From Thermithiobacillus tepidarius DSM 3134 (GTDB lineage: Bacteria > Pseudomonadota > Gammaproteobacteria > Acidithiobacillales > Thermithiobacillaceae), in contig NZ_AUIS01000008.1 of the NCBI RefSeq assembly GCF_000423825.1, positions 1 through 64,000 on the forward strand: a DNA stretch of 64,000 nucleotides, given 5' to 3'. How positions within the stretch are numbered: the stretch's first letter is position 1; every line of letters starts with the position of its first letter. The position numbers and the translations under genes were made by a program. Shown here in pieces: positions 573-60,443 of this stretch. The notes below the pieces were generated by a model that did no database searches, was not told where the DNA came from, and was given only the letters and a program-made list of their open reading frames with translations.

Positions 573-821
573 CTAAGCGGCGCTGTCCACCATCTTCAGG
601 GCCTCGCCCAGGGAGTGCACGCCCACCGCCTTCAGCTTGCCGTCCACCACCAGGGCGGGCACGGACTTGATGCGCAGGTTGCTGACCAGGGTGCGTCCCG
701 CCTTGTCGGCCACGTCGAGGACCTGATACTCGATCGGCCGCTGGCGGGCGACTTCCGACCAGACTTTCTCCGCTTCGGGGCAGGTGGGGCACCATTTGGA
801 GGTAAGCAGGGTGACTTGCAT
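573..821 (-). CDS. Small thioredoxin/glutaredoxin-fold protein (CPTC)
   Basis: This is an 82-residue cytosolic thioredoxin-fold protein. A CPTC redox motif sits at residues 11-14 after a first beta strand (MQVTLLTSKW). The cis-proline loop is visible as SVPALVVDGK, so both active-site halves are present. The ATG at 821 is preferred over an upstream one at 857 because AAGGAG lies 7 nt upstream of it. A general thiol-disulfide or glutaredoxin-like role is likely; the partner is unknown. It stands alone, divergent from the hemerythrin gene that starts at 1043. Confidence 0.75.
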   Translation of the reverse strand: MQVTLLTSKWCPTCPEAEKVWSEVARQRPIEYQVLDVADKAGRTLVSNLRIKSVPALVVDGKLKAVGVHSLGEALKMVDSAA

Positions 822-943: not shown

Positions 944-957
944 TTGATTTGGGTCAA
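944..957. promoter_or_regulatory. FNR/DNR-type box upstream of hemerythrin gene
   Basis: TTGATTTGGGTCAA matches the TTGAT-N4-ATCAA consensus with one change in the right half. It is centred 92 bp upstream of the hemerythrin start at 1043, consistent with anaerobic activation. Confidence 0.75.
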
Positions 958-1515: not shown

Positions 1516-1540
1516 GACCGGCTCAGTGGCTGAGCCGGTC
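1516..1540. terminator. Bidirectional hairpin between convergent hemerythrin genes
   Basis: A perfect 11-bp stem, GACCGGCTCAG / CTGAGCCGGTC, with a 3-nt loop lies between the converging genes ending at 1486 and 1523 and includes the last codons of the latter. A T-rich tail is missing, as is common in GC-rich genomes. Confidence 0.6.
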
Positions 1541-2242
1541 GTCCTCGCTGCCCGCCAGGATGCCCTTGACGCGCTCCAGCAGCGCGGCCTGCTCGGCCTC
1601 GGCGTGCCGGAGCTTCAGGGCGGCGTCCCAAAGGGGGAAGAGGTTCTGCTCCTCGCGCGCCTCGTGCTTGGCCAGGGAACCGGACAGCAGAGCGAAGAAG
1701 GGCGCCACCTCCCCCGCCGCCGGCAGCCCGTCCTCGAAGAAGGACGCCAGGATGTCCAGCTGCTCGACGATGCGCTCGTGCTCCTCCAGCATCACCGTCA
1801 CCGGCTCCCGCGGCACTTCGAGGGCCGGGGCCAAAATGAGGTTTTCCACGTGCACGTGGCGCCGCAGGCCAAGGGTGTAGGAGTCCAGCAGCGGCGCGGC
1901 GGTCGGCACGTCATTGGCGTTGACCCTGTGCAGCGCCTCGGCGAAGAGCCGGTCGAGCCGCTCGTGGTCGCGGCCCAGCAGCTCCATCAGGGTGCCCGGC
2001 TCCACGTCGTCGCGGTGCCGCAGCTCGACGCGCCAGCCGCCGGCCGCCATGGGCTCGGCTTCCCAGTGCAGGCGGTGGCGCACCTGCAGATTGACGCTCT
2101 GCATCAGGAGCGTGGGCTCCTCCGCCACCAGCAATCCCGCCGTCTGCCCCGGATGCAGGTCGCGCGCCAGCGCAAAGGCCTGGCTGCGCACCGCCACCGG
2201 GTCCTGTCCCCGCAAATCGCGGAAAGGATGAAATGCCTGCAT
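1523..2242 (-). CDS. DUF2249-hemerythrin fusion protein
   Basis: This 239-residue protein has two parts. Residues about 1-75 resemble DUF2249, a TusA-like fold (HPFRDLRG, LHPGQTAGLLV, LHWEAEPMAAGGWRVELRHR). The remainder is a hemerythrin HHE domain (GRDHERLDRLF, RRHVHVENLILAPALE, EEHERIVEQLD, KHEAREEQNLFPLW). DUF2249 and hemerythrin are also adjacent but separate genes at 2309-3101 and 13575-14265, so this fusion supports a functional partnership. It probably has its own promoter, because an FNR-type box is centred 63 bp upstream of the start. The domain calls are firm; a role in NO or redox handling is inferred. Confidence 0.85.
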   Translation of the reverse strand: MQAFHPFRDLRGQDPVAVRSQAFALARDLHPGQTAGLLVAEEPTLLMQSVNLQVRHRLHWEAEPMAAGGWRVELRHRDDVEPGTLMELLGRDHERLDRLFAEALHRVNANDVPTAAPLLDSYTLGLRRHVHVENLILAPALEVPREPVTVMLEEHERIVEQLDILASFFEDGLPAAGEVAPFFALLSGSLAKHEAREEQNLFPLWDAALKLRHAEAEQAALLERVKGILAGSEDDRLSH

Positions 2243-3563: not shown

Positions 3564-4928
3564 TTAAATTGGGCCGACCTGCTGGGCACTCACCAGCGCC
3601 AGGTTGGGGTCGTACAGGTATTCGACGTTGCCGGCCTCGACTTGTTTCAGGTACTGCTCGAATTGCTTCTTGGCCTCGGACCAGGAGATGCCCATCTTCT
3701 CGACCAGCTCCTCGCAGGGCGAGGCATGCCACTGCAGCTGCACGATCTTGAAGGGATCGGCGCCGCAGGCCAGCGCCGCGAACTGCACGTCGGCCATGAT
3801 CGGCATGGAGTAGTTCTTCTCGTGGGCACGGCCGATCCACTGGTTCTTGTCCATGGTGGTGATGCAGCCGGTGTCATGTCCCACCATGACGTCGGCCTTG
3901 GCCTCTTCCTGCGCCACCTTGATCTTGCGGTCGATGGTGAAGGAACGGGTGAATTCGCGCTCGGAGATGATGTGCCGGAAGCCGAAGCCGCAGCAGTCAT
4001 ACCAGGTGGAATAATCGATCACTTGCGCGCCCAGGGCCATCAGCACCGAGGTGGTGACGGCCACCCGGTTGCCGCCCAGCACATCCGGATCGTAGATGGC
4101 ATCCTCGGGCACCATCTTGTAGACGTGGCAGGCCGGATGCACGGTGGTCCGGATGTGGGACACGTCGATCTTCTGCAGGTCGGAGGCGATGCGATTGCGC
4201 ATGACGTGCAGCCACTCGGAGTAGTGCACGATCTCCTCGGGGATGACGATCTTGCCGTCCACCAAGCGGCCGATCTTGCCGAGGATCTTCTTCACCTTCT
4301 CGCGCAGCTCGGCGCTCTCGATCAGATACTTGCGCACCTCCTTGTAATTGCCGAAGGAGGTGCCGCAGTGCACCAGGGGATAGAAATAGCCGGGACCATA
4401 GCCGTGCTGCTTGCCCGAGACGTAGGCCTGGTGGAAATTGCGCAGGAACACGGCGGCCAGCGACTCGACGTTGCCGATGCCGGAGCCGTGATAGTTCCAG
4501 GCCGTGCAGGAGGTCTGGTCGGTCTCGTCCAGATAGTCGCGCCCCGGCACCTGGCCGAGCTCGTTCATGAGCCACAGGAGGCTCGTCGGGTAGCCTGGGA
4601 TGTTGCCGCACTGGCCACAGGACTTGTGATGCCAGAGCTGCTTGGTGGGGATGCGCTTGTCCCAGCCGTACAGCGTTTTCGTCATCACCGGCGCGTGCTC
4701 GTCGCGGATGCGGTGGACGATGATCTCGCCCTCCTTCTCCAGCTCCCACATGTGGTCGCGGATGTCGTCGATGCGCTCGCCGAGGTCGATGGTGCGCCGG
4801 TCCACGTGCTTGCGCACCCAGGAGGTGGCGCGCTCCGCCTCATCGGTGCTGAGATTGGTGGCCTGGAAAAAAGCCCCGTGGCCGGCGATGCCCTGCGCTT
4901 GCGTATCCATGGAATCATTCGTACCCAT
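3564..4928 (-). CDS. Heterodisulfide reductase subunit B-like CCG-domain protein
   Basis: This 454-residue soluble protein resembles HdrB-type CCG proteins. Cysteines visible from the chosen start are C104 and C107 (CGQC), C141 (SCTAWNYHGSG), C188, C267 (VHPACH), C312-C313 (DCCGFG), C355 (HDTGC) and C388. The C-terminal set follows the CCG layout, but the final CxxC reads D-T-G-C, so one canonical ligand is missing. The start at 4928 is chosen because AGGAGG lies 5 nt upstream; an adjacent ATG at 4931 is too close. No hdrA or hdrC is present. It leads an operon with globin, DUF2249 and hemerythrin. HdrB relatives handle disulfides, for example in the sHdr sulfur-oxidation complex; the substrate here is unknown. 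Confidence 0.7.
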   Translation of the reverse strand: MGTNDSMDTQAQGIAGHGAFFQATNLSTDEAERATSWVRKHVDRRTIDLGERIDDIRDHMWELEKEGEIIVHRIRDEHAPVMTKTLYGWDKRIPTKQLWHHKSCGQCGNIPGYPTSLLWLMNELGQVPGRDYLDETDQTSCTAWNYHGSGIGNVESLAAVFLRNFHQAYVSGKQHGYGPGYFYPLVHCGTSFGNYKEVRKYLIESAELREKVKKILGKIGRLVDGKIVIPEEIVHYSEWLHVMRNRIASDLQKIDVSHIRTTVHPACHVYKMVPEDAIYDPDVLGGNRVAVTTSVLMALGAQVIDYSTWYDCCGFGFRHIISEREFTRSFTIDRKIKVAQEEAKADVMVGHDTGCITTMDKNQWIGRAHEKNYSMPIMADVQFAALACGADPFKIVQLQWHASPCEELVEKMGISWSEAKKQFEQYLKQVEAGNVEYLYDPNLALVSAQQVGPI

Positions 4929-5072: not shown

Positions 5073-5086
5073 TTGATCTGGATCAA
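5073..5086. promoter_or_regulatory. FNR/DNR box upstream of the HdrB-like operon
   Basis: TTGATCTGGATCAA is a perfect consensus palindrome (CCTTGATCTGGATCAAGG extended), centred about 150 bp upstream of 4928. It overlaps the stop codon of nsrR, so the operon downstream can be switched independently of the nor cluster. Confidence 0.85.
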
Positions 5087-25835: not shown

Positions 25836-25842
25836 GCGCACC

Positions 25843-27793: not shown

Positions 27794-27849
27794 GGGCCCC
27801 CCGCCTGGTTGACGAAGCCTCAACTTAGCCCGGCCGGCGGACCGAAACC

Positions 27850-27863
27850 TTGACGCGCGTCAA
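27850..27863. promoter_or_regulatory. FNR/DNR-type box upstream of the ubiUV-containing operon
   Basis: TTGACGCGCGTCAA is centred 63 bp upstream of the first gene (27793). It begins 4 bp after the end of the nitronate monooxygenase-like gene, so the ubi operon can be expressed separately. Confidence 0.75.
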
Positions 27864-30577: not shown

Positions 30578-30587
30578 GGTCGACTCC

Positions 30588-31109: not shown

Positions 31110-31120
31110 GGGTATCTCCT

Positions 31121-32671: not shown

Positions 32672-32693
32672 ATCTTTCTCCTGAATTCAAAGG

Positions 32694-32756
32694 GTGGAGA
32701 ATGAGCCATGGGGATGGACGAGAGAGTTACCCATGGGGCGTTGCCTCATTCTCCAC
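32694..32756. other. Inverted repeat in the narG-narH spacer
   Basis: Arms GTGGAGAATGAG (32694-32705) and CTCATTCTCCAC (32745-32756) are perfect complements. Inside them, CCATGGGG occurs twice (32706-32713, 32731-32738) and its palindromic CCATGG core can extend the stem. No T-run follows, so an mRNA processing or stability element is more likely than a terminator. Confidence 0.75.
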
Positions 32757-32764
32757 AAAACTTG

Positions 32765-36511: not shown

Positions 36512-36601
36512 ATTGCCTCCAAGTCAGCCCCTGATCGGCATTTCAGAATCTTCTGATGCCTTTGTCGGTTGTTATCACACCACGAAGCGGGGCGACGGTT
36601 G

Positions 36602-36615
36602 TTGATGTATGTCAA
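36602..36615. promoter_or_regulatory. FNR/DNR-type box upstream of narG (set 1)
   Basis: TTGATGTATGTCAA is centred 97 bp upstream of narG at 36511, in the 211-bp spacer after narK. Confidence 0.75.
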
Positions 36616-36680
36616 AAAAGCCCGATTCGCTTCCGGTCCGTCCACGCGCGCGCTCATCCCCTTTGGCGCGCGGACGGACG

Positions 36681-36714
36681 CGGGGCGCGGCCGCGAATGC
36701 GCGACCGCGCCCCG
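36681..36714. terminator. Hairpin downstream of the first narK pair
   Basis: A 10-bp perfect stem (CGGGGCGCGG / CCGCGCCCCG) with a 14-nt loop that can itself pair (CGCG...CGCG) begins 8 bp past the narK stop. It probably separates narK transcription from narG. Confidence 0.55.
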
Positions 36715-36722
36715 GATGCCCC

Positions 36723-38108: not shown

Positions 38109-38148
38109 GACTTCCTCCTTTCACTCAGGGTGGGTTCAGCCGTAATGC

Positions 38149-39420
38149 TCACACTCGTTGCGCCACGGCGCCGGCGACCGGACTCGGCTTCCGGCCCTCC
38201 TTGCGCGCGGGCACGATTTCGGTCCAGTACATCCACACCAGGGACACCAGGGTGATGCCCCACAGCAGCATGAAGATGCTGGAATTGACGCCGGTGAAGT
38301 CCAGCAGCACGCCGAACATGATGGGCAGCAGGAAGCCGCCCAGGCCGCCGGCCAGGCCGACCACGCCGGACACCACGCCCATGTTCTGCTTGTAATCGTC
38401 GGCGATGTATTTGAAGACCGAGGCCTTGCCGATGGCCCAGGCCGTGCCCATGACGAACATGATCACGGTGAACACCGGCGGCGTGAGGCCGATGGCGAAG
38501 TGCATCTCGCCGTGCTGGGTGCGGACGGTCAGCTCGGTTTGCGGATAGGCCAGGAAAAAGAGGCACACCCAGGAGACGAGCAGCACCCACCAGGTGACCG
38601 GGTGCGCGCCCCACTTGTCCGACAGCCAGCCGCCGAAGGCGCGCAGCACGCCGCCCGGCAGCGAGAAGGCCGCCGCCAGCAGCGCCGCCGTTTTCAGATC
38701 GAATCCGTATTCGGCGACGTAGTACTTGGTCATCCACAGGGCCAGCGCCACGTAGCCGCCGAAGACCAGGGAATAATATTGGGAGTACTTCCAGACCTTG
38801 GGATCGCGCAGGGCGAGCAGCTGGTCCCGGAAGGTCACGTGCCGGGGCGCGCAATGCGCCGGGTCGGAGTAGGTCAGGAACCAGAACAACAATGCCACGA
38901 CGAGCATGGCGGCGGCGTAGACGGTCGGCACCATGGTCCAGCCGTAGGCCACCACGATGGACGGCGCCACGAACTTGGTCAGCGCCGCGCCGGCGTTGCC
39001 GGCGCCGAAGATGCCCATGGCCAGGCCCTGGCGCGTCTTGCCGAACCAATGGGCCACGTAGCTGATGCCTACCGAGAAGGCGCCGCCGGCCAACCCCACG
39101 AAGAGCCCCAGCAGCAGAAACTGCCAGTACTGTGTTGCCCGCCCAACAAGATAAATGGGTATGATTGTCCCTAACATGACCGCAAAAAAAACGCTGCGGC
39201 CGCCGAGCTTGTCGGTCAGCATGCCGAGCGGCAGGCGCACCAGGGCGCCGGTCAGGATCGGGGTGGCGGCCAGCAGGCCGAACTGGGTCTCGTTGAGTCC
39301 GAGCTGCTCTTTGATCGGGATGCCGATGATGGAGAACATGACCCACACGGCGAAACACGTGGTGAAGGCCACGGTGCTCATCGTCAGGACCGACATCTGT
39401 TTGTAGCGTTGACTTGCCAT
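38149..39420 (-). CDS. narK: NarK-type nitrate/proton symporter (set 1, first narK)
   Basis: This 423-residue MFS protein is of the type I NarK group. The signature GLFVGLAGGAFSVGISYVAHWF and a second GVVGLAGGLGGFLLPI are present. It starts MASQRYKQMSVLTMSTVAF at 39420 with GGGAGG 7 nt upstream; a longer version is rejected. The FNR-type box at 39495 is centred 82 bp upstream. Pairing of type I and type II NarK is typical of denitrifiers. Confidence 0.93.
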   Translation of the reverse strand: MASQRYKQMSVLTMSTVAFTTCFAVWVMFSIIGIPIKEQLGLNETQFGLLAATPILTGALVRLPLGMLTDKLGGRSVFFAVMLGTIIPIYLVGRATQYWQFLLLGLFVGLAGGAFSVGISYVAHWFGKTRQGLAMGIFGAGNAGAALTKFVAPSIVVAYGWTMVPTVYAAAMLVVALLFWFLTYSDPAHCAPRHVTFRDQLLALRDPKVWKYSQYYSLVFGGYVALALWMTKYYVAEYGFDLKTAALLAAAFSLPGGVLRAFGGWLSDKWGAHPVTWWVLLVSWVCLFFLAYPQTELTVRTQHGEMHFAIGLTPPVFTVIMFVMGTAWAIGKASVFKYIADDYKQNMGVVSGVVGLAGGLGGFLLPIMFGVLLDFTGVNSSIFMLLWGITLVSLVWMYWTEIVPARKEGRKPSPVAGAVAQRV

Positions 39421-39494
39421 GGCGCGCCTCCCGTCCTCCTGATTGAAGGGCTTGACCGACGCGCTCAAGGTGACATGAAGCAAGGGCCGGAACC

Positions 39495-45592: not shown

Positions 45593-46276
45593 TCATTTTG
45601 GCCGCACCACCTGATAGCTGCGCCAGGGATAGGCGACGGCGGCGAAACCGCTCCAGACGTGCACCAGCCGGCTGAAGGGGAAGAGCACGAACACGGTCAT
45701 GCCGAACCAGATGTGGATCTTGTAGATGATCGGCACGGGCGCGATGAGTTCCACGGCGCCGCCGCGGAAGGTCAGGATGTGCTGCGCCCAGCCGGCCAGC
45801 AGCAGCATGACGCTGCCGTCGCGGTGCTGATAGGAGAAATAGGTGGTGATGAGTCCCAGGACCAGCGTGATCAGCAGCCAGAACAGCACCACCAGATCCA
45901 TGGGCCGGGTGGTGGCGCGGATGCGCGGCTCGACCAGGCGCCGGTGGATCAGCAGCACCAGGCCCACCAGGCAGATCATGCCGGCGATGCCGCCGCTGAT
46001 GATGGCGAGCATCTGCTTGTCGGGCGTGGACAGCCCGAAGGATTCATAGAGCCAGTGGGGCGTGAGCAGGCCGAAGAGGTGGCCGAAAAAGAGAAAGAGA
46101 ATGCCGATGTGGAAGAGATTGCTGCCCAGGCGCAGCTGCCCGAGCCGCAGGAGCTGGCTGGAGTCGCTCTTCCAGGTGTACTGCTCGCGCTCGAAGCGGA
46201 ACAGGCTGCCCAGCAGAAAGATCGCCAGCCCCACGTAGGGATAGATGCCGAAAAGCAGGTAATCCAGGTTGTCCAT
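45593..46276 (-). CDS. narI: NarI, cytochrome b subunit of nitrate reductase (set 2)
   Basis: This 227-residue quinol-oxidising subunit has haem-ligand segments LGSNLFHIGILFLFFGHLFGLL and YKIHIWFGMTVFVLFPFSRLVH. The conserved FEREQYTWKSDSSQLLRL motif matches the set 1 copy almost exactly. The remainder is clearly diverged, so the two copies are not a recent simple duplication throughout. Confidence 0.96.
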   Translation of the reverse strand: MDNLDYLLFGIYPYVGLAIFLLGSLFRFEREQYTWKSDSSQLLRLGQLRLGSNLFHIGILFLFFGHLFGLLTPHWLYESFGLSTPDKQMLAIISGGIAGMICLVGLVLLIHRRLVEPRIRATTRPMDLVVLFWLLITLVLGLITTYFSYQHRDGSVMLLLAGWAQHILTFRGGAVELIAPVPIIYKIHIWFGMTVFVLFPFSRLVHVWSGFAAVAYPWRSYQVVRPK

Positions 46277-46318
46277 GGCCGAATCTCCCGTGTCGCGATG
46301 CCGAATCGATGCAAACCG

Positions 46319-46990
46319 CTACGCCTGACCGATGCCGGTCGGCGCCCGCGAGCCCGGCCGGGGCGGGTCCACGTAGGCCACCTGCGGCTTGGGCGTCAGC
46401 AGGGGCTCGACGCCGTCCGCCCCCGGCCCGAACCGCACCAGGGCGTCTTCCATGTCGCGCGATGGCTGCTCGGCCAGCGGCGCGGCCGCCACCGGCGAGA
46501 GCGCCTCCAGCACCCGGAAGATGCCCTGGTAGGGGCTGCCGTCCCGGGCCAGGCGCCCACCGATCAGCGCCAGCACGTCCACCGCTTCGCCCAGCAGGGC
46601 CAGCGCCTCGTCCTCCGGCCGCAGGGACAGATACTCCAGGAAGAGCGGCAGGTAGTCCGGCAGCTCGTCGGCGTCGATCTCCAGGCCGTGCTGCCGGTAT
46701 TCCTGCAGCAGGCTCACCATGGCCTCCCCGCGCTCCCGCGACTCGCCGTGGATATGCTCGAAAAGATGCAGCGAGTGGGCCGGATTGCGGTCGAAGGTGG
46801 CCACGTAGTGCTGCTGCAGCTCGATCAGCCGCTCGCCGCGCAGGTGCTGCAGCAGCGCGCTCAGCGAGCCTGCCGCCGCGCCGTTGGAGGCCGTCTCCTC
46901 GACCAGGACCGCCTCCACTTCGTCGAGGGCGGCCAGCCAGGCCGGCTCCGGATAGGTGAGCAGCAACGCCAATGCCTTGAAAGTTTTCAT
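46319..46990 (-). CDS. narJ: NarJ, nitrate reductase maturation chaperone (set 2)
   Basis: This 223-residue NarJ/TorD-family chaperone carries the signature YVATFDRNPAHSLHLFEHIHGESRERGEAM. It is about 50 residues longer than the set 1 copy because of a proline-rich tail (LTPKPQVAYVDPPRPGSRA) with no obvious function. The start overlaps the narH stop. Confidence 0.92.
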   Translation of the reverse strand: MKTFKALALLLTYPEPAWLAALDEVEAVLVEETASNGAAAGSLSALLQHLRGERLIELQQHYVATFDRNPAHSLHLFEHIHGESRERGEAMVSLLQEYRQHGLEIDADELPDYLPLFLEYLSLRPEDEALALLGEAVDVLALIGGRLARDGSPYQGIFRVLEALSPVAAAPLAEQPSRDMEDALVRFGPGADGVEPLLTPKPQVAYVDPPRPGSRAPTGIGQA

Positions 46991-48534
46991 GAAGGCAGCC
47001 CTCCCGTGGACTTGGGGCGCGGATGGTAGTGCAGCCGCTGCGTCTTGCGGGTGCCGAAGAGGCCCGCCTTGGACACGCCGTCGGAGCAGGTGTTGCCGAA
47101 GGAGAAGCCGCAGTAGCCCTTGTCGGTGAAGGCCTCCTCCGACACCTCGCGGCGCACGGTGGGGATGACGAAGCGGTCCTCGTAGTTGGCGATGGCCAGG
47201 TAGCGGTACATCTCCTCCACCTGCGCCTCGCTCAGCCCCACCTGGCTGAGCACCTCGGTATTGGCGCGGCCCTCCACCGACTTGCCGCGCATGTAGGCGC
47301 GCATGGCGAGCATGCGGTCCAGCGCCCGGACCACGGGCGCCTCGTCGCCGGCGGTGAGCAGGTTGGCCAGGTATTTCACCGGGATGCGCAGCGAGCGGGT
47401 GTCGGGAATGATGCCGTTCATGCCCATGCGGCCGCTCTCGGCGGCGGCCTGGATCGGCGACAGGGGCGGCACGTACCAGACCATGGGCAGGGTGCGGAAC
47501 TCGGGGTGCAGGGGGAAGGCGATTTTCCAGTCCATGGCCAGCTTGTACACCGGCGAGCGGCGCGCCGCCTCGAGCCAGGCCTCGGCGATGCCGTTGCGGC
47601 GCGCCTGGTCGATCACCACCGGGTCGTTGGGGTCGAGGAAGATGCCCAATTGCGCTTCGTAGAGATCCTGCTCGTCGGCGACGCTGGCCGCCTCGCGGAT
47701 GCCGTCGGCGTCATAGAGCAGCACGCCTAGGTAGCGGATGCGCCCGACGCAGGATTCCGAGCAGACCGTCGGCTGCCCGACCTCGATGCGCGGGAAGCAG
47801 AAGATGCACTTTTCCGCCTTGCCCGATTTCCAGTTGTAGTAGACCTTCTTATAGGGGCAGCCGCTGATGCACATGCGCCAGCCGCGGCACTTGTCCTGGT
47901 CCACCAGCACGATGCCGTCCTCGGCGCGCTTGTAGATGGAGCCCGAGGGACAGGAGGCCACGCAGGTGGGATTGAGGCAGTGCTCGCACAGGCGCGGCAG
48001 GTACATCATGAAGGTGTTCTCGAAGGTGGCGTACATCTCCTTCTGCACGTCGTCGAAGCAGATGTCGCGACTGCGCGATTCGAACTCGCCGCCGAGATCG
48101 TCCTCCCAATTTGGCCCCCAGACCACCTTGTCCATCTTGTCGCCGGTGATGATGGACACCGGCCGCGCCGTGGGCGGGGTCTCGGACAGCGGCGCGTCGT
48201 GCAGGCGCTGGTAGTCGAAGGTGAAGGGCTCGTAGTAGTCGTCAATGGCGGGCAGGTTGGGGTTGGCGAAAATATTGGCGAGGATGCGCCACTGGCTGCC
48301 CTGGCGCGGCTGGATCTCGCCGTCGCCCTTGTGCGCCCAGCCCCCGTTCCAGCGCTCCTGGTTCTCCCACTCCTTGGGATAACCGATGCCGGGCTTGGTC
48401 TCGACGTTGTTGTACCAGACGTATTCCATGCCGTCGCGGAAGGTCCAGACGTTCTTGCAGGTGATGGAACAGGTGTGGCAGCCGATGCACTTATCCAGGT
48501 TCATCACCATGGCGATTTGCGCTCTCACTCTCAT
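46987..48534 (-). CDS. narH: NarH, iron-sulfur subunit of nitrate reductase (set 2)
   Basis: This 515-residue subunit has the four cysteine groups CIGCHTCSITCKN, CEHCLNPTCVASCPSG, CRGWRMCISGCP and CSESCVG in the same spacing as set 1. It lies 30 bp after narG without the inverted repeat present in the set 1 spacer. The last four bases overlap narJ. Confidence 0.97.
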   Translation of the reverse strand: MRVRAQIAMVMNLDKCIGCHTCSITCKNVWTFRDGMEYVWYNNVETKPGIGYPKEWENQERWNGGWAHKGDGEIQPRQGSQWRILANIFANPNLPAIDDYYEPFTFDYQRLHDAPLSETPPTARPVSIITGDKMDKVVWGPNWEDDLGGEFESRSRDICFDDVQKEMYATFENTFMMYLPRLCEHCLNPTCVASCPSGSIYKRAEDGIVLVDQDKCRGWRMCISGCPYKKVYYNWKSGKAEKCIFCFPRIEVGQPTVCSESCVGRIRYLGVLLYDADGIREAASVADEQDLYEAQLGIFLDPNDPVVIDQARRNGIAEAWLEAARRSPVYKLAMDWKIAFPLHPEFRTLPMVWYVPPLSPIQAAAESGRMGMNGIIPDTRSLRIPVKYLANLLTAGDEAPVVRALDRMLAMRAYMRGKSVEGRANTEVLSQVGLSEAQVEEMYRYLAIANYEDRFVIPTVRREVSEEAFTDKGYCGFSFGNTCSDGVSKAGLFGTRKTQRLHYHPRPKSTGGLPS

Positions 48535-48564
48535 GCGGATCTCCTCGTTTTGCGGCGGCGGACG

Positions 48565-51500
48565 TCATCGCGCCCGGGCCGGGCTGCGCATGGCCTCCCG
48601 CTCCGGGGTCAGCGGCCCTTCCATCCAGTCCACGTGCTGCATCTTGCGCACGATGACGTATTCGTCGCGGTTGGAGCCGACGGTGCCGTAGTAGTTGAAG
48701 GCGTAGCTCAGCTGGGCGTAGCCGCCGATCATGTGGGTCGGCTTGGTGATCGTGCGCGTCACGCTGTTGTGGATGCCGCCGCGGAAGCCGCTGGTCTCCG
48801 CGCCGGGCACATTCACGATCTTCTCCTGGGCGTGGTACATGAGCGCCATGCCGCGCGGCACGCGCTGGCTCACCACGGCGCGCGCGGTCAACGTGCCGTT
48901 GACGTTGAAGACCTCGACCCAGTCATTGTCGCGGATGCCCGCCTCGCGCGCCTCCACTTCGGAAATCCAGATGTGGGGACCGCCGCGCGACAGGGTCAGC
49001 ATGTGGCCGGTGTCGGTGTAGGTGCTGTGGATGCCCCATTTCTGGTGCGGCGTGATCCAGTTGAGCACGAGATGCGGCTGGCCGTTGCCGAAGCGGTCGA
49101 TGGCCGGCTGGACGGTCTTGGTGGCGATGGGGGGCTTGTACACGCACAGGCCCTCGCCGAAGTCCAGCATCCACTTGTGGTCCTGGTAGAACTGCTGGCG
49201 GCCGGTCAGGGTGCGCCAGGGGATGAGCTCGTGCACGTTGATGTAGCCGGCGGTGTAGCTCACCTCCTCGGATTCGATGCCGCTCCAGATGGGCGAGGAG
49301 ATGATCTTGCGCGGCTGCGCCACGATGTCGCGGAAGCGGATCTTGTCGTGCTCCCGCGGCAGCGCCAGGTGGGTGTGGTCGCGGCCCGTGATGGTGGACA
49401 GCGCCTCCCACGATTTCACCGCCACGTGCCCGTTGGTCTCCGGCGCCAGCATCAGGATCACTTCGCAGGCGTCGACGGCGGTGTCGATGCGCGGCCGCCC
49501 CTGGCTGACGCCCTCGGCCTGCACGGTCCGGTTGAGCTCGGCCAGCTGCCTGAGCTCGACGTCCGTGTTCCAGTTGATGCCCTTGCCGCCGTTGCCGAGC
49601 TTGTCCAGCAGCGGACCCAGCGCGGTGAATTTCTTGTAGGTGTCGCCGTATTCGCGCGTCACCACCACCACATGGGGCAGGGTCTTGCCCGGCACCGGCT
49701 CGCACTCGCCCTTCTTCCAGTCGCGCACGTCCAGCGGCTGGCCCAGCTCGGAGGGGGTGTCGTGCTGCAGAGGCACGAGCACCAGGTCCTTGCGGGTGCC
49801 CAGGTGCTCGGCGGCCAGCGCCGAGAACTGCTTGGCGATGGCTTTGTAGATCTCCCAGTCGCTGCGGCTCTGCCACAGGGGCTGCACCGCCTCGGTCAGC
49901 GGGTGGATGAAGGGGTGCATGTCGGAGGTGTTGAGATCGTCCTTCTCGTACCAGGTGGCGGAAGGCAGCACCACGTCCGAGTAGAGGGCGGTGGTGGACA
50001 TGCGGAAGTCCAGGGTCACCAGCAGATCCAGCTTGCCCTCCGCCGCCTGCTCGTGCCACACGACCTCGTTGGGCTTGGGCTCCCCGAGCTCGCCCAGATC
50101 CGGCCCCAGCACGGCGTTCTGGGTGCCCAGCAGGTATTTCAGGAAATACTCGTGGCCCTTGCCGCTGGAACCGAGCAGATTGGAGCGCCAGACGAAGAGG
50201 TTGCGCGGGAAATTCCGGGGATTGTCCGGATCCTCGCTGGCAAAGCGCAGGGCGCCGGATTTCAGCTGCTCCACCGCGTACTTGACCGGGTCCAGGCCCA
50301 GCGCTTCCGCCTGCTGCACCACCTCGATCGGATTGCTCTCCAACTGCGGGGCGGACGGCAGCCAGCCCATGCGCTCGGCGCGCACGTTGAAGTCGATCAG
50401 GCGCTGGTCGACCAGGGCGGGGTCGGCGGTGGGCGACAGGATTTCGTCGACCTTGAGCTTTTCGTGCCGCCACTGGCTGCTGTGGTTGTAGAAAAACGAG
50501 GTGCCGTTCATCTGCCGCGGCGGCCGGTGCCAGTCGAGGGCGAAGGCCAGCGGCGTCCAGCCGGTCAGCGGCCGCAGCTTTTCCTGTCCCACGTAGTGCG
50601 CCCAGCCGCCGCCCGACTGGCCGACGCAGCCGCACATCACCAGCATGTTGATGATGCCGCGGTAGATCATGTCGTTGTGGTACCAGTGATTGAGGCCCGC
50701 CCCCAGGATGACCATGGACTTGCCCTGGGTCTTGTCGGCGTTGTCGGCGAACTCGCGGGCCACGGTGACGATGTCGGCGCGCTTGACGCCGGTGATCTTC
50801 TCCGCCCAGGCCGGCGTATAGGGCACGTCCTCGTCGTAGCTGGCGGCCACGTTCTCCCCGCCCAGCCCGCGGTCGATGCCGTAATTGGCCAGCAGCAGAT
50901 CGTAGACCGTGGCCACCAGGGTCTCCCGGCCGTTCACGGACAGGCGCTTGACCGGCACCTGGCGGGCCAGCAGCGCGTCACGGTCGCCGCCGAAGTAGGG
51001 GAAGCTCACCGCCGCCACCTCGTCCTGCACCCCCATGAGGCTCAGCCGCGGCTTGATCTCCTGGCCGCTGGCGGCGTCCCGGAGCTCCAGGTTCCACACG
51101 CCGACCTCGCCCCAGCGGTGGCCGATGCTGCCGTTGGGCGACACCAGATAGCCGGTGAGCTCATCGATCACCACGGCCTTCCACTCGGGATTGTTGGCCT
51201 GCCCCAGCCCGCCCTCCAGGTCGGCGGCGCGCAGCAGGCGGTCCGCCACCAGGGTGCCGTCGTGCTCGCGCAAGGTGACCAGCATGGGCATGTCGGTGTA
51301 CTGGCGGCAATAGGCGTCGAAGTAGGCGCTCTTGCCGGGCAGGTGGAACTCCTTCAGGATCACGTGGCCCATGGCCAGCGCCAGGGCCGCGTCCGTGCCC
51401 TGCTTCGGGGCGAGCCAGATGTCCCCGAACTTCACGTATTCGCCGTAGTCGCTGGCGATGGCCACGGTCTTGGTGCCCTTGTAGCGCACCTCGGTGTAGA

Positions 51501-52296
51501 AGTGGGCGTCGGGGGTGCGGGTCTGCGGCAGGTTGGAGCCCCAGACCAGCAGATAGGTGGAGTTGTACCAATCGGCCGACTCCGGCACGTCGGTCTGCTC
51601 GCCCCAGACCTGCGGGCTCGAAGGCGGCAGGTCGCAGTACCAGTCGTAGAAGGACAGCAGCACGCCGCCGATCAGGGACAGGTAGCGGGCGCCGGCGGCG
51701 TAGCTGACCATGGACATGGCCGGGATCGGCGAGAAGCCGATCACCCGGTCCGGGCCGTGCTGCTTGATGGTGTGGACGTTGGCGGCGGCGATCAGCTCCG
51801 TCACCTCGTCCCAGTTGCTGCGCACGAAGCCGCCCAGGCCGCGCACGGCGGTGTACTGCCTGCGCTTGGCCGGATCGGCCTGGATGGCGGTCCAGGCCTC
51901 CACCGGCCCCAGGCGGCTGCGCGCTTCGCGCCACAGCTCCATCAGGCGTCCGCGCACCAGCGGATACTTCAGGCGCTGGGCGCTGTAGACGTACCAGGAA
52001 TAGCTGGCGCCGCGCGGGCAGCCGCGCGGCTCGTGGTTGGGCAGGTCCGGACGGGTGCGCGGATAATCGGTCTGCTGGATTTCCCAGGTGATGAGCCCGC
52101 TCTTGACATAGATCTTCCAGGAGCACGATCCCGTGCAGTTCACCCCGTGGGTGGAGCGCACCACCTTGTCGGTCTGCCAGCGCATCCGGTAGGCGTCCTC
52201 CCATTCGCGATCCTCCTTCACCACCACGCCCAGGCCGTCGGCGAAGTGCCCCACGTTTTTTCGGAAGAACAGCATCCGGTCGAGAAAATGGCTCAT
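48565..52296 (-). CDS. narG: NarG, catalytic subunit of nitrate reductase (set 2)
   Basis: This 1243-residue subunit has FS0 ligands H50, C54, C58 ([13 protein letters not shown]) and a matching C93 (EPRGCPRG). [16 protein letters not shown] is present near the molybdenum site. Parts, such as 51590-51890, are nearly identical in DNA to set 1, while others diverge strongly. It starts 39 bp after narK with no promoter-like box between, so it is probably transcribed from the narK promoter. Confidence 0.97.
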
Positions 52297-52335
52297 GAGA
52301 TCACTCCTTGTTCCAATAGGCTGCGCCGGGCGCGT

Positions 52336-53673
52336 TCAAGAAGGCACTTCCGCGCCGCGGCGGGCGTAGTACCACCAGCTGACCGCGATGCAGGTCACGT
52401 AGAACAGCAGAAAGGTGTACAGGGCCGCCTGCGGCCCGCCGGTCATGGCGATGGAGGTGCCGAAGGCCTTGGGGATGAAGAAGGCCCCATAGGCGCCCAC
52501 CGCCGAGCTGAAGCCGAGCAGGGCGGCGGACAGCATGCCCGCTTCCTTGCGCAGCGCCTCCTCCGACAGCGCCGTGCCGCGCGCCTCGGTCTCGCGCCGA
52601 AACATGGTCGAGCAGATCACCGGGATCATGCGGAAGGTGGAGCCGTTGCCGATGCCGGTGCTGAAAAAAAGCAGCAGGAACATGGCCATGAAGCCCCAGA
52701 ACACGCCGCCATGCGCCTCGCCGCGCAGGAAATAGAGCACGCCCAGTACCGCCAGCGCCATGACGATGAAGGTCCAGAAGGTCACCCGCGCACCGCCGAC
52801 CTTGTCCGCCACCCAGCCGCCCAGCGGGCGGGACAACGCGCCGATCAGCGGCCCCAGGAAGGCGTACTGGGTCGGGTCCACGTCGGGAAACTGGTACTTG
52901 GTCAGGAGCGGCAGTCCGGCGGAAAAGCCGATGAAGGAGCCGAAGGTGCCCAGGTAAAGCCAGCTCATGATCCAGGTGTGCCGGCGCTTGAAGATCACCG
53001 CCTGCTCGGCGAAGGAGGCCTTGGCCGAGGCGATGTCGTGCATGCCGAACCAGGCGGCCAGGGTCGCCAGCGCGATGAAGGGTACCCAGATGAAGCCGGC
53101 GTTCTGCAGCCACATGTCGCGGGTCGCCCCTCCCTTGACCCAGGTCTGCGGCTCGCCGCCCAGGGCGCCGAATACCCCGGCCGTGATCACCAGCGGCACC
53201 AGGAACTGCATGGCGCTCACCCCCAGGTTGCCGAGCCCGGCGTTGAGGCCCAAGGCCGTGCCCTTCTCCGCCTTCGGGAAGAAAAAGCTGATGTTGGCCA
53301 TGCTGGAAGAAAAATTGCCGCCGCCGAAGCCGCAGAGCAGAGCCAGGATCAGGAAGACCGCAGACACGTCCGCGGTGCTCAGGGTGGTCCACTTGCGCCC
53401 GCCGAAGATCGGCACCATGAACGAGTAGAAGATGCGCAGGGTCGCCCCCGATAGGCCCGGTGCCGCCGCCAGCCAGAAGAGCTGATTCTCGCTGAAGCGG
53501 AAGCCGACGTTGGGCAGGTTCACCACCACCATGCTCCACACCATCCACACCGCGAAGGCGAGGAACAGGGCCGGAATGGAGATCCACAGATTGCGCCGGG
53601 CGATCGCCTTGCCCTCGCGCTCCCAGAAGGCCCGGTCTTCCGGGTTCCAGCTCGTCAGCACATGCGTGGCCAT
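52336..53673 (-). CDS. narK: NarK-type nitrate/nitrite antiporter (set 2, second narK)
   Basis: This 445-residue MFS transporter is of the type II NarK group and starts MATHVLTSWNPEDRAFWEREGKAIARRNLW. The ATG at 53673 has GGGGGAGA about 5 nt upstream and is preferred over one at 53688. Signature motifs GFGGGNFSSSMANISFFFP and GFSSAVGAYGAFFIP match the set 1 copy. It lacks a stretch present there near residue 110. It lies 40 bp after the type I narK and 39 bp before narG. Confidence 0.92.
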   Translation of the reverse strand: MATHVLTSWNPEDRAFWEREGKAIARRNLWISIPALFLAFAVWMVWSMVVVNLPNVGFRFSENQLFWLAAAPGLSGATLRIFYSFMVPIFGGRKWTTLSTADVSAVFLILALLCGFGGGNFSSSMANISFFFPKAEKGTALGLNAGLGNLGVSAMQFLVPLVITAGVFGALGGEPQTWVKGGATRDMWLQNAGFIWVPFIALATLAAWFGMHDIASAKASFAEQAVIFKRRHTWIMSWLYLGTFGSFIGFSAGLPLLTKYQFPDVDPTQYAFLGPLIGALSRPLGGWVADKVGGARVTFWTFIVMALAVLGVLYFLRGEAHGGVFWGFMAMFLLLFFSTGIGNGSTFRMIPVICSTMFRRETEARGTALSEEALRKEAGMLSAALLGFSSAVGAYGAFFIPKAFGTSIAMTGGPQAALYTFLLFYVTCIAVSWWYYARRGAEVPS

Positions 53674-53713
53674 GCCTGTCTCCCCCATGGTGTCCCGCGC
53701 ATCCGATCGCCCC

Positions 53714-54979
53714 TCATTCCAGCACGTCCCCCGCCGCGGCCCGCTGCCGCTCCCGGGCCGCCGCCATGGGCCGCACTTCGGTCCAGTACATCCACATCAG
53801 CGACACCCAGATGATGCCGAACAGGAGCATGAAGACCGACGAGCGCACGCCGGTGAGATCCACCAGGGCGCCGAAGAGGATGGGCAGGATGAAGCCGCCC
53901 AGGCCGCCCATCAGCCCGACGATGCCGGAGATCACGCCGATGTTGTGCGGATACTGATCGGAGATGTACTTGAACACCGACGCCTTGCCGAAGGCCCAGG
54001 CCACGCCGACCACGAAGAGCAGCGCGGTGAAGACCCAGGCACTGAGCCCGATGTGGAAGGTCCGAGGACCGTCCACGGTATGAACGACGAAATCGGTGCG
54101 CGGATAGGACAGGAAAAATAGCGCCACCAGCGACACCCACAGCACCCACCAGGTGACGGTATGGGCGCCGTAGCGGTCGGCCAACCAGCCGCCGAAGGCG
54201 CGCAGCACGCCGCCCGGCAGCGAAAAGGCGGCGGCGAACAGGGCGGCGATCCGGATGTCAAAGCCGTATTCGGCGACGTAGTACTTGGTCATCCACAGGG
54301 CCAGCGCCACGTAGCCGCCGAAAACGATGGAATAGTACTGACAGTAGCGCCACACCCGCGGGTCCTTGAGCGCACGCAGCTGCTCGCCCACGGTCACCGT
54401 GGCCGACACCCGGTGCGCCGGGTCGGAGTAGGTCAGGAACCAGAAGAGCAATGCCATGACGAGCATGGCGGCGGCGTAGACGGTCGGCACCATGGTCCAG
54501 CCGTAGGCCACCACGATGGACGGCGCCACGAACTTGGTCAGCGCCGCCCCGGCGTTGCCGGCGCCGAAGATGCCCATGGCCAGGCCCTGGCGCGCCTTGC
54601 CGAACCAGCGGGCCACGTAGCTGATGCCCACCGAAAAGGCGCCGCCGGCCAGCCCCACGAAGAGCCCCAGCAGCAGAAACTGCCAGAACTCGCGGGCTTG
54701 GCCGATGAGGTAGAGGGGCAGGACGGTACTCAGCATCAGCGCGAAGAAAACGCTGCGGCCGCCGTACTTGTCGGTCAGCATGCCGAGCGGCAGGCGCACC
54801 AGGGAGCCGGTGAGCACGGGCGTGGCGGCCAGCAGGCCGAACTGGGTCTCGTTGAGTCCGAGCTGCTCCTTGATCGGAATGCCGATCACGGCAAACATCA
54901 TCCACACCGCGAAGCAAACGGTGAAAGCCAGCGTGCTCATGGTGAGCACGGCTATCTGCTGGTGGGTTTGCGTCGCCAT
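53714..54979 (-). CDS. narK: NarK-type nitrate/proton symporter (set 2, first narK)
   Basis: This 421-residue type I NarK has GLFVGLAGGAFSVGISYVARWF and GIVGLMGGLGGFILPI. It starts MATQTHQQIAVLTMSTLAF at 54979; an upstream ATG at 55081 is rejected because the extension is not NarK-like and would cover the regulatory region. It heads an apparently continuous operon narK-narK-narGHJI-ppiase. The NarL-like site at 55094 is 115 bp upstream. Confidence 0.92.
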   Translation of the reverse strand: MATQTHQQIAVLTMSTLAFTVCFAVWMMFAVIGIPIKEQLGLNETQFGLLAATPVLTGSLVRLPLGMLTDKYGGRSVFFALMLSTVLPLYLIGQAREFWQFLLLGLFVGLAGGAFSVGISYVARWFGKARQGLAMGIFGAGNAGAALTKFVAPSIVVAYGWTMVPTVYAAAMLVMALLFWFLTYSDPAHRVSATVTVGEQLRALKDPRVWRYCQYYSIVFGGYVALALWMTKYYVAEYGFDIRIAALFAAAFSLPGGVLRAFGGWLADRYGAHTVTWWVLWVSLVALFFLSYPRTDFVVHTVDGPRTFHIGLSAWVFTALLFVVGVAWAFGKASVFKYISDQYPHNIGVISGIVGLMGGLGGFILPILFGALVDLTGVRSSVFMLLFGIIWVSLMWMYWTEVRPMAAARERQRAAAGDVLE

Positions 54980-55093
54980 GGCTGTCCCTGGGTCCTGGAT
55001 AGGCGCATCGCTCTCATCGATGGATGAGACCTTTCCGTCGGGCCGCGGTTTGGCGGGCAGCCGGTGCGCGCCGGCCGGCAAAAGCGGCCGCCT

Positions 55094-56760: not shown

Positions 56761-57434
56761 TGCCTCGGCGCCGCTCAGTGCTCGTCATCGACGATCACCC
56801 CCTGTTCCGCAAGGGCGTGGTGCAGCTTCTGCAATCCCGGGACGACTACGAGGTCGCGGGCGAAGCGCCCTCCGGCGCCGAAGGCATCGACTTGGCCCGG
56901 CGGCTGCGGCCCGATTGCATCCTACTGGACCTCAACCTCAAGGACATGAGCGGCATCGACGTGCTGAAATCGCTCAAGGCACACGATGCCGGCGCCTGCG
57001 TGCTCATGTTGACCGTCTCGGACGCGGCGGAGGACCTGGTCGACGCCCTGCGCGGCGGCGCCGATGGCTACCTGCTCAAGGACGCGGATCCGCAGGAACT
57101 GCTGTCGGGCCTGCACGCCGCCGCCCAGGGGCGCGTGGCCGTCAGCAGTCTCCTCACCGGCATCCTGGCCCAGGCCCTGCGCGGGGACGCCCTGCCCAGG
57201 ACACCCGCGGAAGCCGGCCTCACCGCGCAGGAGCGCGCCATCCTCGAACACGTTGCAGATGGGCAGAGCAACAAGGTGATCGCCCGGGAACTGGGCATCA
57301 GCGAGGGCACGGTCAAGGTGCATGTGAAGCACCTGCTGAAAAAACTCCGGCTGCGCTCGCGGGTGGAGGCGGCCGTCTGGGCCGTGGAGCACGGCTACCG
57401 GCCAAATCCCACGCACAACGGCAGTCGCCGGTGA
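56760..57434 (+). CDS. narL: NarL-type response regulator
   Basis: This 224-residue regulator has a receiver domain with D57 (PDCILLDLNL) and the conserved lysine in YLLKDAD, and a LuxR-type helix-turn-helix (LTAQERAILEHVADGQSNKVIARELGISEGTVKVHVKHLL). The sequence is close to NarL/NarP. The ATG at 56760 overlaps the TGA that ends narX in the restored frame (TGATG). Its stop codon lies in the first unit of a heptamer repeat. It probably binds the palindrome at 55094. Confidence 0.93.
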   Translation: MPRRRSVLVIDDHPLFRKGVVQLLQSRDDYEVAGEAPSGAEGIDLARRLRPDCILLDLNLKDMSGIDVLKSLKAHDAGACVLMLTVSDAAEDLVDALRGGADGYLLKDADPQELLSGLHAAAQGRVAVSSLLTGILAQALRGDALPRTPAEAGLTAQERAILEHVADGQSNKVIARELGISEGTVKVHVKHLLKKLRLRSRVEAAVWAVEHGYRPNPTHNGSRR

Positions 57435-57508
57435 TTGGTGATTGGTGATTGGTGATTGGTGATTGGTGATTGGTGATTGGTGATTGGTGATTGGTGATTG
57501 GTGATTGG
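57430..57508 (+). repeat. Heptamer tandem repeat (GGTGATT) downstream of narL
   Basis: Eleven perfect copies of GGTGATT plus two bases run from 57430 to 57508. The first copy includes the narL stop codon. The unit length makes copy-number variation likely; it does not change the narL product because the stop is in the first unit. Confidence 0.95.
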
Positions 57509-57685: not shown

Positions 57686-58132
57686 TCATTCCGCGCAGCG
57701 CATGCACTGCACGTCGTAGCGGTCGATCCACTTCTGCAGGGCCTCGACGGCGGCCGCGCCGGTCGCCAGGGTGTCGAAGGCGTGCTCGGGGTCGTCGGGG
57801 CGCACCTTGGCGATCCAGGCGTCGTGGTAAGGATCGATGTTGACCAGGTTGGGCATCTCCAGCACCGCTTCGTTGACCGCGACCACGGTACCGGCGAAGG
57901 GGCAGGGCACGCCGCCGGCCCACTTGCCGCTCTCCAGGGTGGCCACGTGCCGGCCGGCCGCCAGGACCGTGCCCACCTTCTTGATGCGGATCTTCTGCAC
58001 CCGCCCGGCCATGGTCTGGGCCGGATCGGTGATGCCCAGGGTGACGGTGCCGTCCTCCTCCGGCCGGATCCACACATAGTCGAGATCGAAGAACAAATCG
58101 TCGGGCAACTCACAACCGCGGTATTCTGCCAT
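57686..58132 (-). CDS. GcvH/LbpA-like lipoyl-carrier protein
   Basis: This 148-residue protein has a biotinyl/lipoyl-type domain: VWIRPEEDGTVTLGITDPAQ at the start, then the lipoyl-lysine hairpin ATLESGKWAG with K70. The E-S-G-K context differs from typical GcvH (E-S-V-K) and resembles the lipoate-binding proteins (LbpA) of sHdr sulfur oxidation. The C-terminus has a C143-M-R-C146 pair. The ATG at 58132 follows GGGAGG and is preferred to one at 58144. No glycine cleavage genes are nearby. A consensus-like FNR box lies about 100 bp upstream. It may be served by the ligase-DUF116 fusion at 23308. Confidence 0.75.
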   Translation of the reverse strand: MAEYRGCELPDDLFFDLDYVWIRPEEDGTVTLGITDPAQTMAGRVQKIRIKKVGTVLAAGRHVATLESGKWAGGVPCPFAGTVVAVNEAVLEMPNLVNIDPYHDAWIAKVRPDDPEHAFDTLATGAAAVEALQKWIDRYDVQCMRCAE

Positions 58133-58225
58133 ACCCCCTCCCATGCCTCGCGGACATCACGCGCCGCGCGGCGGCGCGGCTTTCGGATCTTGGAAAGAGT
58201 CTAGGACCGGACGGCCTCGGCGTCA

Positions 58226-58239
58226 TTGATCTGGGTCAA
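58226..58239. promoter_or_regulatory. FNR/DNR-type box upstream of the lipoyl-carrier gene
   Basis: TTGATCTGGGTCAA, centred 100 bp upstream of 58132, in the 131-bp spacer after a DNR-type regulator gene. Confidence 0.8.
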
Positions 58240-58263: not shown

Positions 58264-58950
58264 TCAAACGCAGGTTTCGCGCCAGTGCCGCAGCTTGCCC
58301 AGATCGGGAATGCGGATCTGCGGACCGTCCAGCTCGATCAGGCCAAGGTCGCGCAGGGAGGCCAGCACCCGGGAAAAGGTCTCCGGCTTGATGCCCAGCC
58401 GCGAGGCGATGACGTTCTTGTGGGCGGGCAGTTGGAAGGTCGCCGTGCCCGACTGGGCGGGACAGTGCTCGAGCAGATAGCCGGCCACCCGCTGCCCGGC
58501 GGTCTCCAGGCTGAGGGCGCGCACGTCGTTGATGAGCTGATGCAGGCGCAGGCTGATGCTGGCCAGCATCTTCATGGCCATACTGTTGTTGGCCTTGAGG
58601 GTGCGGATGAAATCCGCCATGTCGATGCGCAGCAGCCGGGCCGGTCCCAGGGCCGCGGCGTAGACCGGATAGCGCCCGCCGAGAAAGACCACGGCCTCGG
58701 CGAAGGTCTCGCCCGCCTGAATGAGCTCGATCACCTTCTCGTTGCCGTCCGGCGCCAGCTTGAACAGGCGCATGCCGCCGCTGACGATGAAGTAAAAGGC
58801 GTCCGCCTTGTCCCCCTCGCGAAACAGCAGCGCGCCCGTCTCCAGTTCCAGGGAACGGGCATTGGCCGCGATCTGGGCCAGTTCGTCGGGGCTCAGCGCG
58901 GAAAAAAGCGGCGCCTGCCGCAGCAGCGTGGTGTCGGCGTCATTGAGCAT
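58264..58950 (-). CDS. Crp/Fnr-family regulator, DNR type (second copy)
   Basis: This 228-residue regulator starts MLNDADTTLLRQAPLFSALSPDELAQIAANARSLEL. It has the sensor beta barrel, a dimer helix (MKMLASISLRLHQLINDVRALSLE) and recognition helix KPETFSRVLASLRDLG with the E-x-x-S-R pattern. It lacks FNR-type cysteines, as the copy at 16102 does. Such proteins sense NO through haem in Pseudomonas. The ATG at 58950 is preferred over one at 58998 that adds non-conserved residues. Confidence 0.82.
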   Translation of the reverse strand: MLNDADTTLLRQAPLFSALSPDELAQIAANARSLELETGALLFREGDKADAFYFIVSGGMRLFKLAPDGNEKVIELIQAGETFAEAVVFLGGRYPVYAAALGPARLLRIDMADFIRTLKANNSMAMKMLASISLRLHQLINDVRALSLETAGQRVAGYLLEHCPAQSGTATFQLPAHKNVIASRLGIKPETFSRVLASLRDLGLIELDGPQIRIPDLGKLRHWRETCV

Positions 58951-59620: not shown

Positions 59621-59634
59621 TTGACCAGGATCAA
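59621..59634. promoter_or_regulatory. FNR/DNR-type box between cytochrome c' and persulfide dioxygenase genes
   Basis: TTGACCAGGATCAA is centred 117 bp upstream of the plus-strand dioxygenase gene (59745) and 76 bp upstream of the minus-strand cytochrome gene (59551). The spacing favours the cytochrome. Confidence 0.75.
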
Positions 59635-59744: not shown

Positions 59745-60443
59745 ATGATTTTCCGGCAACTGTTCGATCCGACCACCTCCACCCTCACCTACCTGCTCGG
59801 CGACGAGGCCACGCGCCAGGCGGTGCTCATCGACTCCGTGCTGGAGCAGGTGGACCGCGACCTGGCCTTGCTGCAGGAACTCGGCCTGACCCTGGCCTAT
59901 ACCCTGGAAACCCACATCCACGCCGACCACGTCTCCGGCGCCAAGCGCCTGCGCGAGCTGACCGGCTGCAAGATCAGCGTGCCCGACCCGGCCAAGCTGG
60001 ACTGCGCGGACCTTCTGGTGCGCGAGGGCGAACCGCTGCAGCTGGGCAGCCTGCGCATCGAGCCGTTGCATACGCCCGGGCATACGGACGTGGATTTCTG
60101 CTATCGGGTGGGCGACCGCGTCTTCACCGGCGACACCCTGCTCATCGACGGCTGCGGACGCACCGACTTCCAGAGCGGCGATGCCGCCGCCCTGTACCGT
60201 TCGGTGCAGGACAAGCTCTTCACCCTGCCGGGCGAGACCCTGGTCTACCCGGGCCACGACTACAACCACCGGCGGGTGTCCAGCATCGAGCAGGAGCGCC
60301 TGCGCAATCCGCGCCTGGGCGGCGGCAAGACCCTGGACGAGTTCGTGGCCATCATGGACAACCTGAACCTGCCCAAGCCGGCGCAGATCGAGCGCGCCGT
60401 GCCGGCCAACCTGGGCTGCGGCCGGGCGGCCGCGGGCGCTTAG
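59745..60443 (+). CDS. Persulfide dioxygenase-like metallo-beta-lactamase protein (ETHE1 type)
   Basis: This 232-residue MBL-fold protein has metal motif H57-I-H59-A-D61-H62, then HTPGHTDVDFCY and VYPGHDYNHR. The FTGDTLLIDGCGRTDFQSGD segment is typical of ETHE1-type persulfide dioxygenases, which oxidise glutathione persulfide to sulfite. It opens an operon with an ArsR regulator, an MFS transporter and a rhodanese, a sulfide/persulfide detoxification arrangement. Confidence 0.88.
   Translation: MIFRQLFDPTTSTLTYLLGDEATRQAVLIDSVLEQVDRDLALLQELGLTLAYTLETHIHADHVSGAKRLRELTGCKISVPDPAKLDCADLLVREGEPLQLGSLRIEPLHTPGHTDVDFCYRVGDRVFTGDTLLIDGCGRTDFQSGDAAALYRSVQDKLFTLPGETLVYPGHDYNHRRVSSIEQERLRNPRLGGGKTLDEFVAIMDNLNLPKPAQIERAVPANLGCGRAAAGA

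Follow-up and report, generated by a model that had tools for sequence, protein, structure and literature searches.

To our knowledge, the number of lipoate-dependent systems is small. The presence of a gene for a lipoyl carrier close to denitrification genes in Thermithiobacillus tepidarius DSM 3134T raises the question of which process this protein serves. The gene is located in a stretch of 64 kb that was analyzed as a whole and is termed the window in the following. An initial annotation of the window took the gene product for an LbpA-like protein outside any gcv or sHdr cluster and for a possible part of a dispersed lipoate-based redox system used during denitrification. Even for the LbpA proteins already described, the reason why sulfur oxidizers possess two of them has been stated to be unexplained (PMC6067878).

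The carrier protein and its position among GcvH-fold proteins

The features first ascribed to positions 57686-58239, that is an LbpA-like lipoyl carrier with an ESGK motif, a C-terminal CxxC and an FNR-type box upstream, were all seen there. The gene (57686..58132, minus strand) encodes a protein of 148 amino acids with an N-terminal GC and a C-terminal CMRC; the longest open reading frame (57686-58144, minus strand) comprises 152 codons, and the conserved ATG start at 58132 yields the 148-residue form. A match to Pfam GCV_H (E = 1.2e-34), an AlphaFold2 model (pLDDT 83) and Foldseek comparison with lipoylated H-proteins all point to a GcvH fold, and the protein stays below the curated NCBIfam cut-off for GcvH equivalogs (TIGR00527; 79.9 versus 115.85 bits). 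From its sequence, we infer that it is lipoylated on Lys70 of the ESGK motif (numbering of the 148-residue form).

The genome of T. tepidarius DSM 3134T (2,958,498 bases) encodes four GcvH-fold proteins, the fourth of which is the protein from the window. A gcvTHP set with its own GcvH, carrying an ESVK motif, resides on contig C16, and gcvT or gcvP genes are not found within the 64-kb window. Contig C5 harbors a complete sHdr cluster comprising genes for rhodanese, TusA, DsrE, sHdrC1-B1-A, sHdrC2-B2, LbpA1, a DsrE-like protein and LbpA2 together with the lipoate-assembly genes LipS1, sLpl, LipT and LipS2. The location of the carrier gene outside any gcv or sHdr cluster is thus confirmed, and the idea that the genome might be devoid of such systems has to be given up, as both are present in full, each with its own carriers. 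The initial annotation had conceded that a clear position within GcvH with gcvTP elsewhere, or a complete sHdr cluster with its own LbpA, might explain the carrier away; both systems exist, but neither accounts for a protein that falls into a clade of its own.

This clade emerged from a tree of 129 proteins, among them 27 GcvH, 26 LbpA1 and 42 proteins of the new group, including that from the window. The GcvH proteins are separated from the LbpA proteins with a support of 100/100, so that the phylogenetic check proposed with the initial annotation returned an LbpA-type and not a GcvH-type protein. LbpA2 splits off with 98/91, and the window protein lies outside both the LbpA1 and the LbpA2 clades, in a group (99/93) that is sister to LbpA1. 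Judged by this phylogeny, the sHdr-type lipoate-binding proteins comprise a third class, to which the window protein belongs and for which the name LbpA3 is used here. One Aquifex protein falls outside the LbpA3 clade and groups with an Aquifex LbpA. LbpA3 occurs in Acidithiobacillus, Thermithiobacillus, Acidiferrobacter-like MAGs, Thioalkalivibrio and beta- and alphaproteobacterial MAGs. The N-terminal GC and a C-terminal C[ML]RC are present in all of 87 LbpA3 sequences (CMRC in 84, CLRC in three). The ESGKW lipoyl motif is likewise found in 87 of 87. This figure partly reflects how the sequences were collected, LESGKWAG having been one of the two search patterns; the conservation of the cysteines does not.

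It is very improbable that LbpA3 backs up GcvH in glycine cleavage or is a duplicate in decay. It shares the GcvH fold, but it is far from GcvH in the tree, the gcvTHP genes have a GcvH of their own, and across several classes the sequence is kept at 54-79% identity, its motifs being invariant. LbpA3 does not belong to glycine cleavage. In acidithiobacilli and Thioalkalivibrio, several distinct proteins can be concealed under the annotation 'gcvH'.

FNR/DNR-type boxes and the organization of the window

A perfect FNR/DNR-type box (TTGACCCAGATCAA in minus-strand reading; pattern TTGAYN4RTCAA) is situated upstream of LbpA3 at 58226..58239 on the minus strand, and a -10-like TAGACT (58198..58203, minus strand), recognized by pattern only, follows at class-II FNR spacing. 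DNR of Pseudomonas aeruginosa responds to NO. The gene adjoining LbpA3 (58264..58950, minus strand) encodes a Crp/Fnr-family regulator whose closest relative among solved structures is DNR (3dkw; E = 2.6e-45). With a box at promoter distance and a regulator of this family nearby, LbpA3 shows the features of an FNR/DNR-controlled gene.

Altogether, the window contains 12 perfect boxes, whereas 200 first-order Markov simulations averaged 0.04 and never yielded more than one. All 12 sit 12-190 bp upstream of gene starts, and the genes behind them include nar, nor, nrdD, ubi-type, hemerythrin, thioredoxin, sHdrB1 and LbpA3 genes and others, which bears out the original suggestion that the carrier gene shares its boxes with denitrification genes. 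Across LbpA3 loci, the upstream regions, 60 kb in total, contain 41 perfect boxes, 18 times the density of flanking DNA, and a perfect upstream box was observed at 40 loci where 2.3 were expected. Upstream of many Acidithiobacillus LbpA3 genes the consensus box is absent.

At the opposite end of the window, 57 kb from LbpA3 and behind a box of their own, lie homologs of the genes that accompany LbpA3 in related genomes. A thioredoxin-like protein (Thioredoxin_3, CPTC; 573..821, minus strand) and the hemerythrin HHEa (PF01814; 1043..1486, plus strand) are divergently encoded, with a perfect box between them (944..957). They are followed by a gene for a hemerythrin-domain protein of 239 amino acids (1523..2242, minus strand; perfect box upstream at 2299-2312) and by that for the hemerythrin HHEb (PF01814; 2309..2839, minus strand), which is found directly behind LbpA3 in Acidiferrobacter-like loci. 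A gene for a bacterial-like globin (PF01152; 3128..3550, minus strand) separates HHEb from a second full-length sHdrB1 (Pfam CCG domain; 3564..4928, minus strand), upstream of which there is another perfect box (5073-5086). In Acidiferrobacter-like loci the order on the minus strand is DNR, LbpA3, HHEb and then the divergent HHEa and thioredoxin genes. T. tepidarius has the same order of parts, but in two halves, with DNR-LbpA3 at 58 kb and the genes for HHEb, HHEa and thioredoxin far from them at 0.6-2.8 kb; each half has a perfect box, and nar and nor genes lie in between. Denitrification genes may have been inserted between the two halves of one module.

Two nar clusters with narK-type transporter and narGHJI-type genes occupy positions 29879-39483 and 45593-55081 of the window. 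About ten 8-base repeats (GGTGATTG) form an array at approximately 57430-57507, between NarXL-type genes and LbpA3. On the other side of LbpA3, a gene for an ETHE1-type persulfide dioxygenase (59745-60443) is preceded at a distance of 118 bp by a perfect FNR/DNR box (59621-59634).

The HdrB-like protein, the LplA-DUF116 fusion, the DUF2249 proteins and the ETHE1-type gene that had initially been assembled around the carrier are all present in the window. The LplA-DUF116 unit (22899-27823, minus strand; box at 27850) also comprises genes for SCP2-domain and two U32-peptidase-type proteins (UbiT/U/V-like) and a radical SAM protein. The fusion was considered as the ligase for LbpA3 and rejected, being present in only 11 of the 26 LbpA3-bearing relatives; given this distribution and its placement with ubiT/U/V-type genes, it was also dropped from the proposed lipoate system. 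What holds of that dispersed system is the LbpA-type carrier, the shared boxes and a link with sHdr, which is provided by the HdrB-like protein, i.e. the second sHdrB1.

Neighbors, co-inheritance and the relationship with sHdr

Neighbors were counted within 7 kb of LbpA3 at 87 loci, including one from an Aquifex MAG, a phylogenetically non-independent set with a few loci from the same genomes and others from related ones. At 82 of these loci a thioredoxin-like gene stands beside LbpA3; HHEa was found at 50, HHEb at 42 and a DNR-like regulator at 44. Less frequent are a 2Fe-2S/FAD/NAD reductase (24/87) and a single-domain globin (20/87), which are neighbors in acidithiobacilli, and an LplA-type ligase (15/87). 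The thioredoxin-like protein, the hemerythrins and the DNR-like regulator, the most constant partners, had been missed by the initial annotation. In loci from Thioalkalivibrio and relatives (L104, L043, L116, L122 and others), Thioredoxin_3 is fused to a hydrophobic membrane domain, and on the other side of LbpA3 there is a small membrane protein with weak similarity to COX1/NnrS. In the Aquifex MAG HyVt-501 (L137), an LbpA outside the LbpA3 clade nevertheless adjoins a thioredoxin-like gene, hinting that the pairing of LbpA with thioredoxin is old.

The copy number of LbpA3 equals that of thioredoxin in 55 of 57 relatives and that of HHEa in 56 of 57, and genomes with several copies match as well, with two, 3/3/3 and up to 4/4/4 copies of LbpA3/thioredoxin/HHEa. 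Because copy numbers agree across genomes, we regard LbpA3, thioredoxin and hemerythrin as one unit. Three sHdr-bearing genomes that are at least 98% complete (G010, G011, G013) lack all three genes; sHdr can therefore occur without the LbpA3 unit. Literature searches for LbpA3, or for LbpA in connection with hemerythrin, returned nothing relevant.

LbpA3 is hardly ever found in a genome that lacks sHdr. In a class sample of 369 genomes it is encoded in 18, of which 16 also have LbpA1 and LbpA2 (Fisher 1e-17), and one of the remaining two has sHdrA. Most simply, this co-occurrence would mean that LbpA3 depends on lipoate assembly of the sHdr type or that it works together with sHdr. Genomes with LbpA3 and seemingly without sHdr were considered as proof of independence; this was abandoned when G072, G079, G084 and G251 turned out to bear sHdr, and a further candidate, G396, is 75% complete. 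One MAG (G088; loci L306, L120) combines a LipS1-LipT-LipS2-sLpl cluster with genes for LbpA3, thioredoxin and hemerythrin, and sHdr genes were not detected in it; provided that this genome is complete, the exception would be an important one.

Does LbpA3 then act within sHdr itself? It may be an alternative LbpA subunit, produced with a second sHdrB1 under NO or low oxygen so that sulfur oxidation continues during nitrate respiration. Its position as sister of LbpA1 and its co-occurrence with LbpA1 and LbpA2 speak for this, as does the box-bearing second sHdrB1 in the same window, a protein 88% identical to the copy from the sHdr cluster. It has an ortholog in G001 (100/99) that is likewise linked to nor, so that the nor-linked sHdrB1 is conserved in two Thermithiobacillaceae genomes. 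In G001 yet another sHdrB1 follows directly behind LbpA3, and in G028 a single 4.3-kb contig carries reductase, thioredoxin, HHEa, LbpA3, a box, HHEb and sHdrB1. These two arrangements also count in favor of the alternative. Nevertheless, we consider it rather unlikely: sHdrB1 is found within 7 kb of LbpA3 at only three of the 87 loci, no other sHdr gene was detected within that distance, and it is thioredoxin and hemerythrin that accompany LbpA3 constantly. An additional sHdrB1 is encoded in most Acidithiobacillus genomes, too, where it often matches the cluster copy exactly and lies beside unrelated genes; as a general partner of LbpA3 the extra sHdrB1 was rejected for this group, and the position of these copies weakens the alternative further.

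The conserved cysteines at both termini, proposed to bind sulfur in LbpA proteins (PMC6067878), raise another alternative, namely that LbpA3 is a shuttle for sulfane sulfur (persulfide), with thioredoxin or rhodanese on one side and sHdr or an ETHE1-type dioxygenase on the other, when NO meets polysulfide. A rhodanese is encoded near 15 LbpA3 loci, and the ETHE1-type gene with its own box lies near LbpA3 both in the window and in G001. However, the linkage with rhodanese is mostly limited to some acidithiobacilli and Thioalkalivibrio, ETHE1 occurs within 7 kb at only three of 87 loci, and the hemerythrin is left unaccounted for. We judge this role improbable.

Proposed role and comparison with known systems

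The LbpA3 clade, its conserved cysteines, the FNR/DNR boxes, and the linkage and co-inheritance with thioredoxin and hemerythrin can be read directly from the sequences. They are consistent with the view, held here with about as much belief as doubt, that LbpA3 belongs to a lipoyl-thioredoxin-hemerythrin module of sHdr-type sulfur oxidizers that is induced by NO or low oxygen. A DNR/FNR-type regulator would induce LbpA3 under these circumstances, and the sLpl/LipS1/LipS2/LipT proteins encoded in the sHdr cluster would attach the lipoyl group to Lys70, the probable route of maturation as far as gene content tells. Electron exchange would take place between the dihydrolipoyl arm, perhaps together with the C-terminal CxxC, and the small thioredoxin. 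During nitrate respiration or NO exposure, the two proteins could maintain thiols or lipoyl arms, those of sHdr among them, in a reduced state and prevent NO adducts from persisting on them; alternatively, they may feed the di-iron hemerythrin. In mammalian dehydrogenases, lipoyl arms are blocked by NO species and recover in part upon addition of a thiol reductant (PMC9974485). Lipoyl proteins like LbpA are therefore plausible targets of NO, and a thioredoxin is a plausible help. Only tentatively do we go further and propose a dedicated relay of lipoyl protein, thioredoxin and hemerythrin, induced via an NO- or low-oxygen-responsive regulator, that guards sHdr-type sulfur oxidizers from nitrosative damage. 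Protein-bound lipoate would then have a use other than those in 2-oxoacid dehydrogenases, glycine cleavage and sulfur oxidation.

Some observations count against the proposed module. T. tepidarius reduces nitrate to nitrite, but anaerobic growth on nitrate was not seen (PMC5037610). The lack of a consensus box at many Acidithiobacillus loci belongs here as well. Hemerythrins can signal O2 instead of NO, and the near-confinement of LbpA3 to sHdr genomes and the adjacent second sHdrB1 in a few of them would also fit a role inside sHdr. For sHdr sulfur oxidation as such, LbpA3 is probably unnecessary, and the findings suggest a function of lipoic acid under stress or low oxygen, apart from its known roles. 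A third, separately regulated LbpA with constant partners outside sHdr offers a genetic handle on lipoate outside central metabolism and on the NO tolerance of sHdr organisms respiring nitrate.

LbpA proteins have two conserved cysteines, one N- and one C-terminal, that are missing from GcvH (Cao et al., 2018; PMC6067878). LbpA3 resembles LbpA1 and LbpA2 of sHdr in these cysteines, the GcvH fold, the ESGK lysine and the sHdr-bearing hosts (PMC6067878). It differs from them in forming a separate clade, in its location outside the sHdr cluster, its absence from some sHdr genomes, its up to four copies, and its linkage to thioredoxin, hemerythrin and a DNR-like regulator; moreover, it ends in a CxxC whereas LbpA1 and LbpA2 of this genome have a single C-terminal cysteine. 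With GcvH it shares the fold and the position of the lipoyl-lysine, but it is set apart by the 100/100 separation in the tree, ESGK instead of ESVK and the lack of gcvT/gcvP nearby. Being lipoylated by sLpl/LipS1/LipS2 and not by the machinery of E. coli or B. subtilis is a further trait of LbpA proteins. In T. tepidarius, the sLpl(AB)-LipS1/LipS2/LipT assembly (Tanabe et al., 2023; PMC10332631) is encoded within the sHdr cluster and not beside LbpA3, whereas a different LplA-type ligase adjoins LbpA3 in Acidiferrobacter-like loci. As far as literature searches show, a lipoyl protein has not been described in a DNR/NO-responsive regulon. The LbpA3 loci nonetheless resemble such regulons with hemerythrin, globin and NorCB in their DNR-like regulator, their TTGAYN4RTCAA boxes, their hemerythrins and their globin.
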